From: Natronomonas sp.
Lineage (GTDB): Archaea > Halobacteriota > Halobacteria > Halobacteriales > Haloarculaceae
Assembly: GCF_028274965.1 (NCBI RefSeq)
Contig: NZ_JAQCNO010000057.1
Coordinates: 1 to 64,000, forward strand
DNA length: 64,000 nucleotides
Direction of reading: 5' to 3'
The notes beneath the pieces were generated by a model that worked only from the letters and a program-made list of their open reading frames with translations, was not told the origin of the DNA and searched no databases. Both the position numbers and the translations under genes were made by a program. Each line of letters begins with the position of its first letter. Position 1 is the stretch's first letter. This document shows, piece by piece, positions 35,647 through 37,743 of this stretch.

Positions 35647-35902
35647 CGACACCGATCGCGTCGGTCCGGGGCTGTGGGCCGCTCGACGGTCGGCGCGTCG
35701 GACCGGACGCCCGAGAGCGGGCGAACGCGGTTCGGACCGCCGGAGCATCGCGGGACTGCGGGGCGGCTCCGATGGGGTCCGGGCTCGACATACGACCGGA
35801 TAGGCGCCGTCGACACACTACGATTGGGGTCGATTCGTGCCTCGTTTCGGCGCTCGAAACCGCGGGTCACGTCGGGGTCCGGGTCGCTCTCAGTCCCGAA
35901 AA

Positions 35903-35936
35903 GAGCCATCGGCCACGAAAGGAGCCATCGGCCACG
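35903..35936. repeat. 15-bp element (GAGCCATCGGCCACG) repeated in tandem with 19-bp period upstream of RHH gene
   Basis: Exact copies at 35903-35917 and 35922-35936. Confidence 0.8.
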
Positions 35937-35980
35937 TCAGGAGGGACAGCGTTTTGTCGGCCCCTCGCAACGGTGCGGAC

Positions 35981-36124
35981 ATGTCGACGCCGGACGACCA
36001 CGAGGAGATACCTGTCGCCTTCGACGAGGAGACGCTCGCCGGGATCGATCGCCTGCGCCGCAAAGGGGGGTACGACAGCCGATCGGAGATGGTCGCTGCG
36101 GCCATCGACGCCGCCGGCGAGTGA
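35981..36124 (+). CDS. Ribbon-helix-helix (CopG-like) protein, 47 aa
   Basis: MSTPDDHEEIPVAFDEETLAGIDRLRRKGGYDSRSEMVAAAIDAAGE. Confidence 0.78.
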   Translation: MSTPDDHEEIPVAFDEETLAGIDRLRRKGGYDSRSEMVAAAIDAAGE

Positions 36125-36184
36125 GTTCAGGTGACGCCGGGGTCGGGGGCCGTTGACGCCTCCGGGTCCGCCGCCGGTATAAGA

Positions 36185-36283
36185 GGGCGTGGCGGGAGTG
36201 AGCAAACACGCAGTGTTTGCGAACGACGCCACGCACGTCTCGTTCGTCGTACTCACTCGACGTGCGTGGCGGGTATTCGAACC
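36185..36283 (-). repeat. Divergent copy of tRNA-tail/hairpin repeat (copy C)
   Basis: Starts GGGCGTGGCGGGA, has hairpin GCAAACAC-GCA-GTGTTTGC and 12-bp stem GCCACGCACGTC/GACGTGCGTGGC, ends GGGTATTCGAACC. Confidence 0.75.
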
Positions 36284-36375
36284 GGAGCAAGACGGTCGCC
36301 TCGCTTCGCTCGCCGCTGCGACTTGTAGGTTCGAACTTCGTGTCCGTCGACTCCTCACATCCGTTCGTCGCAGAG

Positions 36376-36487
36376 CGGGCGTGGCGGGACTGAGCGAAAC
36401 CGCAGGTTTCGCGAGGGTCGCCACGTCCGCGAGTGTGTTTCGAGCGGACGCGAGAAACCACGAAGCGGGCGTGGCGGGATTCGAACC
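36376..36487 (-). repeat. 112-bp tRNA-tail/hairpin repeat, copy A
   Basis: CGGGCGTGGCGGGACTGAGCGAAACCGCAGGTTTCGC...GGGCGTGGCGGGATTCGAACC; 111/112 identical to copy B by direct reading. Confidence 0.9.
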
Positions 36488-36594
36488 ACGGTCACTCCCG
36501 TTCGCTCGCTCCGCTCGCTCACCTCTCGTTCCCTGATTAGAGTCCTGCCATGCCGGTTCGGTCGCGGACTCGCTTCGCTCGCCGGCTCCCTGCA

Positions 36595-36706
36595 CGGGCG
36601 TGGCGGGACTGAGCGAAACCGCAGGTTTTGCGAGGGTCGCCACGTCCGCGAGTGTGTTTCGAGCGGACGCGAGAAACCACGAAGCGGGCGTGGCGGGATT
36701 CGAACC
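36595..36706 (-). repeat. 112-bp tRNA-tail/hairpin repeat, copy B (runs into the tRNA-Arg 3' end)
   Basis: Same 112-bp sequence as copy A with one C/T difference; its right end is the T-arm/acceptor of the intact tRNA. Confidence 0.9.
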
Positions 36707-36758
36707 CGCGGTCTAGAGGTTAGGAACCTCTCGCCCTGATCCGCTAGGCCACACGCCC
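36685..36758 (-). tRNA. tRNA-Arg (anticodon CCU)
   Basis: Reverse complement GGGCGTG-TG-GCC...GGGC-GAGAGGTTCCTAACCTCTA-...GCGGGTTCGAATCCCGC-CACGCCC-G: 7-bp acceptor pairing, anticodon loop TTCCTAA, TTCGAAT T-loop; no encoded CCA, no intron. Confidence 0.93.
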
Positions 36759-36826
36759 ACGCCGAAACCACCTCCCACTCGGACCGCCGTCGCGTGCGCG
36801 AAGCGTCGTGCGAAACGCGTCGCTGG

Positions 36827-37276
36827 CTACTGGTTCGTCTCCGCGTCCGTTCCCGCCTCGGCCTGTGCGATCTCGATGTCGTCGTTCGGTTCGTCCGCCT
36901 CCGTGTCGGGGGCAGCCTCAGCGTCGGGGGCAGCCTCAGCGTCGGGGGCAGCCTCAGCGTCGGCGTCTACGACGGTGTCGGGATCGGCGTCGGCGGCGTC
37001 GGCGTCCAGTTCCGCGGCCGGTTCCGCGTCGACGTTGGCGTCAGCGTCGACGTCGTCGCTCGTCCCCGGCGCGTCGTCCGTACTGCCCTCACGCATCTCT
37101 TTGAGTTCCTCCTCGACCTCCTGGCGGCCCTTCTGGAACTCGCCCATCGCCTCGCCGGTCGAGCGCGCGAGTTTCGGGATCTTGTTCGCGCCGAACAACA
37201 GCACGGCGATCAGCAGGATGACGAGCAGTTCCGGGCCGCCGGGGATGCCGAACTGTACCGGGAGTAGGGTTGTCAT
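36827..37276 (-). CDS. tatA: Twin-arginine translocase TatA/E family subunit (long acidic repeat tail)
   Basis: GIPGGPELLVILLIAVLLFGANKIPKLARSTGEAMGEFQKGRQEVEEEL; Asp/Ala-rich C-terminus. Confidence 0.92.
   Translation of the reverse strand: MTTLLPVQFGIPGGPELLVILLIAVLLFGANKIPKLARSTGEAMGEFQKGRQEVEEELKEMREGSTDDAPGTSDDVDADANVDAEPAAELDADAADADPDTVVDADAEAAPDAEAAPDAEAAPDTEADEPNDDIEIAQAEAGTDAETNQ
36907..36961. repeat. In-frame 18-bp tandem repeat in tatA 3' region
   Basis: TCGGGGGCAGCCTCAGCG three times in succession, encoding DAEAAP repeats. Confidence 0.85.
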
Positions 37277-37362: not shown

Positions 37363-37653
37363 TCAGGCGCCGGTCCGTTCGGTCTCGATGTCGCCGTCGT
37401 TGGCGATCTCTGCGTCCGATTCGGCGTCCGCGTCGATCTCCGCGTCGGGCTCGCGGTCGACCTCGTCGCCCTCCTTGAGGTCCTCGAGTTCCTCCTCGAC
37501 CTGCTCGCGGCCCTTCTTGAACTCGCCCGTGGCCGAGCCCATCGAGCGGGCGAGCTTCGGGAGCTTGCTCGCGCCGAAAAGCAGGATCAAGACACCGGCG
37601 ATCAACAGGAGCTCCGGCGGACCGAGCCCCCCAACGAACAGCGGTAAGTCCAT
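37363..37653 (-). CDS. tatA: Twin-arginine translocase TatA/E family subunit
   Basis: GGLGPPELLLIAGVLILLFGASKLPKLARSMGSATGEFKKGREQVEEEL. Confidence 0.92.
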   Translation of the reverse strand: MDLPLFVGGLGPPELLLIAGVLILLFGASKLPKLARSMGSATGEFKKGREQVEEELEDLKEGDEVDREPDAEIDADAESDAEIANDGDIETERTGA

Positions 37654-37743
37654 ACTGTGGGGTTCGCGCGGGTACTTGTATGCCTTTCGCACCCCCGGCC
37701 GGAACCGAAAACGACACCTTCCCGCCGCGTGAGCCCTCGCAGT

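Follow-up and report, generated by a model that had tools for sequence, protein, structure and literature searches.

The array behind the tRNA-Arg(CCU) gene of Natronomonas sp. is probably an accumulation of small DNA hairpin cassettes, non-coding and lacking a transposase, which were inserted serially; a probability of about 0.6 is assigned to this reading. The hairpin cassette family is real, more general than the original prediction held, and widespread in one order of archaea, the Halobacteriales.

The sole tRNA gene detected in the window (the whole stretch of 64,000 nucleotides analysed) is tRNA-Arg(CCU), placed by ARAGORN and Rfam on the minus strand at 36758-36684/36685. Its 3′ end, from T-loop to discriminator, is GGTTCGAATCCCGCCACGCCCG (36685-36706) and is the source copied into the downstream units. 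It recurs five times within 500 nt downstream, with copies ending near 36595, 36466, 36376, 36261, and 36185. The array consists of five units (Table 1), namely, three of type IV with one of type II and one of type I sitting between them, all of which terminate in the tRNA 3′ end. Their lengths range from 76 to 129 bp, and they are non-coding and transposase-free. The original prediction had recognized at least three units, called copies A (36376-36487), B (36595-36706), and C (36185-36283). The repeats are real, but they were undercounted, as there are five tRNA-end copies and the supposed spacers are the type II and type I units. Copies A and B are indeed 112 bp each and 99% identical, with one difference; however, they are not themselves units, each being the preceding 22-bp tRNA-end copy plus one 90-bp type IV unit. 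Copy C had been said to keep the fold, and it does so with a perfect 13-bp stem (36227-36239/36259-36271) and with GCAAACAC-TGC-GTGTTTGC on the tRNA strand. Units 1 and 3 differ by a single base, unit 2 has two type II relatives at 90% elsewhere in the same genome, and the core of unit 4 is a match of the covariance model R1 described below (G000:C6:36282-36330(-), 58.6 bits, E 3e-10).

Table 1. The tRNA-Arg(CCU) gene and the five hairpin units of its array
Feature	Coordinates	Strand	Parts and remarks
tRNA-Arg(CCU), intact host gene	36685..36758	-	ARAGORN; Rfam RF00005, 68.3 bits
Unit 1, type IV	36595..36684	-	Within copy B; linker hairpin; reverse-complement acceptor 36638-36644; core hairpin 36608-36634; tRNA-end copy 36595-36607
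Unit 2, type II	36466..36594	-	Overlooked originally; linker hairpin; decayed reverse-complement T-arm (GGACTCTAATC); type II core; tRNA-end copy GGTTCGAATCCCGCCACGCCCG 36466-36487
Unit 3, type IV	36376..36465	-	Within copy A; reverse-complement acceptor 36419-36425; core hairpin 36389-36415; tRNA-end copy 36376-36388
Unit 4, type I	36261..36375	-	Overlooked originally; linker; reverse-complement T-arm GTTCGAACC; core 36282-36330; tRNA-end copy GGTTCGAATACCCGCCACGCACG 36261-36283
Unit 5, type IV	36185..36260	-	Within copy C; reverse-complement acceptor 36227-36233; core hairpin 36197-36223; tRNA-end copy 36185-36196

A cmscan of positions 35900-37000 against all Rfam families (E<=1) returned nothing but the tRNA and one sub-threshold antisense T-arm match, and a known RNA family other than tRNA was discarded as the identity of the array. 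Two ORFs of more than 100 aa lie over it, 36355-36771 (-) and 36189-36536 (+), and are tRNA and hairpin sequence read as protein; the GSNPATPA-like peptides that they contain antisense to T-arms are an annotation trap. Two adjacent TatA/B/E genes are located upstream of tRNA-Arg(CCU), at 36827-37276 and 37363-37692 (-), the first of which has an acidic repeat tail (DAEAAPDAEAAPD).

Structurally, the units of the family measure about 75-160 bp and follow one plan: X, a linker hairpin L, X′ (the reverse complement of part of X), a core hairpin C, and X again, where X is the T-arm and acceptor 3′ strand of the host tRNA itself. Four core types (I-IV) recur. Type I has the 5′ arm GGATTCGAACC, the stem GGAAGTC(G)/(C)GTCTTCC, and a fixed internal loop CAG/AC, inward of which lie an inner stem, tandem G.A pairs, and a GNA loop; GGTTCGAATCC and the acceptor then follow. 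Types II and III share the frame of type I and have different cores. In type IV, the arm is the acceptor (63-68), and the tandem G.A and GNA motif lies mainly on the strand opposite the tRNA, 31 of 51 loops being TNC on the tRNA strand. Type I loops are GNA in 126/147 units and tandem G.A pairs are present in 89/96; these tandem pairs and the CAG/AC internal loop are the most conserved parts of the units. DNA C(GNA)G triloops and tandem G.A pairs, as in d(GCGAAGC) hairpins, are very stable. The unit boundaries, as judged by eye, fall near positions 52-53 (types I-III) and 60-61 (type IV), thus bracketing the 7-nt T-loop, and 7 nt is the length of a recombinase overlap region. At three loci from three Natronomonas species (L012, L014, and L015), the type IV linker hairpin changes from GTTCGC-TTC-GCTCAC to GCTCAC-TTC-GTTCGC, so that its arms look swapped through four matched transitions.

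The units are closely associated with tRNA genes. Model R1 covers the type I core from after TTCGAA to before TTCGAAT and includes neither T-loop nor acceptor of the tRNA. In 12 genomes, 77 of its 93 matches lie on the same strand as a tRNA gene and just downstream of it, as compared to less than 1% expected from random placement by a rough estimate (about 45 tRNAs x 600 nt over both strands of 3 Mb). The covariance search, which the original prediction had offered as a check, hence found matches that are not scattered, and the marked tRNA genes cover nearly all isoacceptor kinds. A wider regex set, which shares loci with the R1 set, gave 125/147 downstream of a tRNA at a median of 81 nt, and BLAST with the array led to the surroundings of tRNA genes for many isoacceptors in related genomes. 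In G003, a complete genome, the tRNA 3′ end is repeated within 600 nt downstream at 7 of the 30 tRNA loci fetched and within 600 nt upstream at none. Eight of the non-tRNA R1 matches form one dispersed repeat family in G059, and others look severed from their tRNA. The dispersed repeat (L098, L100, L102, L105, L106, L107, L118, and L124) has at least 8 copies and a relative in L226; it is an intergenic hairpin in which a type I core is followed by GAAGGCTGGGGAGGA, and the core module is therefore not bound to tRNA arms. At locus L093 (G031:C1:3021511), a type I unit has no tRNA nearby, and a tyrosine recombinase gene (3020271-3020840) lies at a distance of about 0.7 kb; it looks as though an integrative element had come between the array and its tRNA.

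The family is specific to the Halobacteriales. The type I core model matches 47 of 53 sampled genomes of the order, but not one of about 240 genomes from elsewhere in the phylum. An exact pattern was found in 114 stretches among 85,462 species genomes, and, among the 80 matches listed, all are from Halobacteria. Carriage by viruses or plasmids was rejected, as searches of viral contigs (with one exact pattern), of plasmids, and of phages yielded no copies. The number of type I matches per genome reaches 22 in G059, as against 0 in G044 of the same family, and the two form a natural pair for finding a spreading factor.

The arms of a unit match the tRNA behind which it lies, in sense orientation on the 3′ side and as a complement on the 5′ side. 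The 3′ arm agrees with positions 54-72 of its own tRNA in 17.8/19 positions, as compared to 12.8/19 for other tRNAs. The 5′ arm is complementary to its own host at the variable positions 57 (0.88 vs 0.54) and 63 (0.71 vs 0.46), and beyond position 65 the complementarity falls to background. At position 57, which is G or A according to the host, the arms pair in 114/121 units. Mismatches between arm and host were not used for the G.T bias considered below, since T is invariant at positions 54 and 60, which skews the count. The cores cluster neither by tRNA nor by genome; vertical tRNA-specific lineages were discarded, given that core similarity is equal within a tRNA kind, within a genome, and between both. 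Simple insertion of a foreign element leaves the host matching of the 5′ arm unexplained, and fold-back copying or later correction is a possible addition to account for it.

Empty and occupied sites had been proposed for comparison in relatives, and both states were found at orthologous tRNA-Arg(CCU) and tRNA-Phe genes, the junctions at the end of the tRNA being clean. In Natronomonas, a 77-bp type IV unit directly follows tRNA-Arg(CCU) in G016 and is missing in G006 and G010, where the end of the tRNA abuts the sequence that in G016 comes beyond the unit; the core between the matching arms differs between G016 and G010. Since G001, G009, and G015 also have a linker directly after tRNA-Arg(CCU), gain in G016 is the simpler reading, though loss is an alternative in single cases because the sites are compared between species and not between strains. 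Behind tRNA-Phe, a unit of 108-111 bp is found in G019 and G004 and none in G007, and the site is followed by the conserved flank T[TC]ACACTCAC (L347: TCATACTCAC). The tRNA end is duplicated at both of these sites, and duplication through X is evident from the tandem copies found in G003 behind tRNA-Lys, -Leu, and -Met. In the three Natronomonas species G001, G009, and G015, a type I unit shows one difference, whereas its flanks have diverged, by about 10% in coding sequence and to a greater extent between genes. Some units thus appear to be constrained or converted, and the near-unchanged unit suggests function or conversion rather than idle insertion.

The stems of the units covary far beyond chance, as the original prediction had supposed. 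For type I (104 distinct units), 250 two-sided cells were counted against a shuffled mean of 77.3, the observed count being reached in 0/500 shuffles, and the alignment being fitted to the structure of the model, which leans the count toward covariation. For type IV (29 units), there were 87 against 30.9, again with 0/500 shuffles, in a set chosen for at least 6/8 core pairs, which leans the count in the same direction; its core stem alone has 57 two-sided cells and one G.U. Pairing that acts on DNA is expected to leave G.T and A.C mispairs equally frequent, whereas pairing that acts on RNA should make them unequal. The unit stems contain 31 GT and 27 AC (25 and 23 in type I, 6 and 4 in type IV), whereas, in 233 tRNAs of the same loci, the acceptor and T stems together contain 97 GT and 3 AC (Fisher p 2e-11, which is nominal since related sequences are not independent). 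A G.T excess of 19:0 is seen at the pair adjoining the T-loop (columns 1/108 of alignment A2); without this pair and the mis-registered pair 23/85, the same alignment has 17 GT and 13 AC. The unit stems therefore change by full Watson-Crick swaps with no G.U preference, and the equal rarity of G.T and A.C argues for DNA hairpins and against an RNA gene.

These counts weigh on the other reading that the original prediction had offered beside serial insertion, namely, a structured RNA processed with the tRNA. According to it, the units would be cis-encoded 3′ trailer hairpins, co-transcribed with the tRNA and guiding its maturation, termination, or regulation. The strong covariation, the position of the units on the tRNA's own strand, and the near constancy of one unit over three species would all suit such an RNA, and yet it is improbable: the 31 GT and 27 AC against 97 and 3 in tRNAs leave no G.U preference, the type IV GNA loop and tandem G.A lie mainly on the opposite strand, presence varies within a genus, and only 7/30 tRNAs of G003 have downstream copies. 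An RNA gene as the main reading was rejected on the absence of G.U preference. Serial insertion at the tRNA 3′ end, conversely, is supported by the tRNA association, the host-matched arms, and the empty and occupied sites. Repeats could also arise in place, by replication slippage with hairpin-templated correction and no mobility at all. Templated correction would yield compensatory changes that bypass G.U intermediates, as well as host-matched arms; however, it should erase the conserved mismatches (tandem G.A in 89/96, CAG/AC), which are instead the most conserved, and near-identical cores stand at unrelated tRNAs in different families. Such an origin is therefore quite unlikely.

Very unlikely, too, is a derivation from many independent integrative elements, such as proviruses or plasmids, which used the tRNA 3′ end as attB and left the units as remnants. 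Duplication of the tRNA 3′ end is indeed a feature of haloarchaeal integrative elements, and in Haloferax gibbonsii full tRNA copies are accompanied by partial ones (PMC7921747). Nevertheless, the units are of about 100 bp with conserved structured cores common to various tRNA kinds and genera, and neither these shared cores nor the inverted host arms are expected from deletion remnants. Moreover, a scan of ten neighbouring ORFs of the window revealed no integrase, and the cores are absent from the viral contigs, phages, and plasmids mentioned above. The lowest probability, a very small one, is given to REP/BIME-like or PATE-like elements moved as single-stranded hairpins by an IS200/IS605 (Y1) transposase. 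The conserved mismatches of the hairpins and their strand-specific motif recall the substrates of Y1 enzymes, and halophiles are rich in REP/PATE/IS605-like elements (PMC3119063). The Y1 domain PF01797, however, is absent from G059, despite its 22 type I matches, and from G194 and G004, while it is present in genomes lacking type I matches; the absence from heavy carriers weakens IS605/RAYT mobilization, and insertion duplicates a 22-bp tRNA end, unlike IS605. A SINE-like, tRNA-targeting retroelement was ruled out, because reverse transcriptase (PF00078) was found in 0/20 genomes by a search that detected it in 3/14 control genomes.

Under serial insertion of hairpin cassettes, each event would add one unit, which then separates the tRNA from its former downstream flank. 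The tRNA would stay intact, X would thereby be duplicated, and further units could follow; the X repeats would also let units duplicate or vanish by ordinary recombination. The unit may travel as a DNA hairpin, and a tyrosine recombinase, host- or virus-encoded, could recognize the T-arm and join the folded strand to the tRNA gene, with the X′/X stem recreating a double-stranded T-arm. This joining at the T-arm is modelled on attC sites. Archaeal tyrosine recombinases favour tRNA 3′ ends and T-arm symmetry (PMC8371274). They were detected in 20/20 genomes tested, including ones with no type I units, and their presence was dropped as a carrier marker because it does not separate carriers from non-carriers; no enzyme is linked to the units in the genomes tested. 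The action of a tyrosine recombinase on the T-arm is the favoured mechanism, proposed tentatively by analogy, and the least certain part of the account. A wider reading is doubtful, according to which tRNA genes of the Halobacteriales would be a platform where a host recombinase inserts single-strand hairpin cassettes serially at tRNA 3′ ends, the folded arms of the cassettes recreating the tRNA T-arm and each cassette adopting the sequence of its tRNA.

The family appears to be unnamed in the literature searched (main text of open papers), where a search for repeats downstream of haloarchaeal tRNAs yielded just remarks about partial tRNAs and about integrative elements. The family is present in about nine in ten genomes of the Halobacteriales. 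It represents a natural and abundant case of hairpin evolution at the DNA level with host-copied arms and gives a concrete handle on the movement of transposase-free repeats in archaea. The units may also account for some ‘partial tRNAs’ that accompany full tRNA genes and for some spurious short ORFs antisense to T-arms.

Several known systems resemble the units in part. The 178-bp tyrT repeats of E. coli, or rtT RNA (Rfam RF00391), reportedly line up in tandem behind a tRNA gene, every unit including the 3′ end of the tRNA, and are said to occupy one tRNA locus in enterobacteria. The haloarchaeal units share the tandem arrangement behind a tRNA gene and the tRNA 3′ end in each unit, but they involve many tRNAs, many genera, and covarying hairpins, and the rtT model had no match in the array in the cmscan described above. 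The SMR-A elements of Haloquadratum walsbyi are non-coding sequences of about 110 bp with terminal inverted repeats that insert into palindromes (PMC3119063). The units are likewise haloarchaeal, of about 110 bp, non-coding, and transposase-free, and they share the terminal inverted repeats and the insertion into palindromes. By description, SMR-A copies are near-identical and target the near-terminal palindromes of PATEs/IS605 with no target duplication (PMC3119063), whereas the units are directed to tRNA 3′ ends, with a duplication of about 13-22 bp, and have host-matched arms, the tRNA end being duplicated at both sites compared. As in integron attC arrays, the units form an array beside a fixed platform and are imperfect hairpins, conserved in structure and variable in sequence, with conserved unpaired bases. 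Unlike integron cassettes, they have no cassette ORFs, their arms copy the tRNA, and a search for the general tyrosine recombinase family, which is present in all 20 genomes with or without units, linked no IntI to them; the text of the paper on archaeal integrons makes no mention of Halobacteria (PMC9668308). Finally, archaeal tRNA-targeting integrative elements use the 3′ part of a tRNA, regenerate the tRNA, and duplicate its 3′ end as the units do, but they bring an integrase and kilobases of genes (PMC8371274), whereas the units are hairpins alone.
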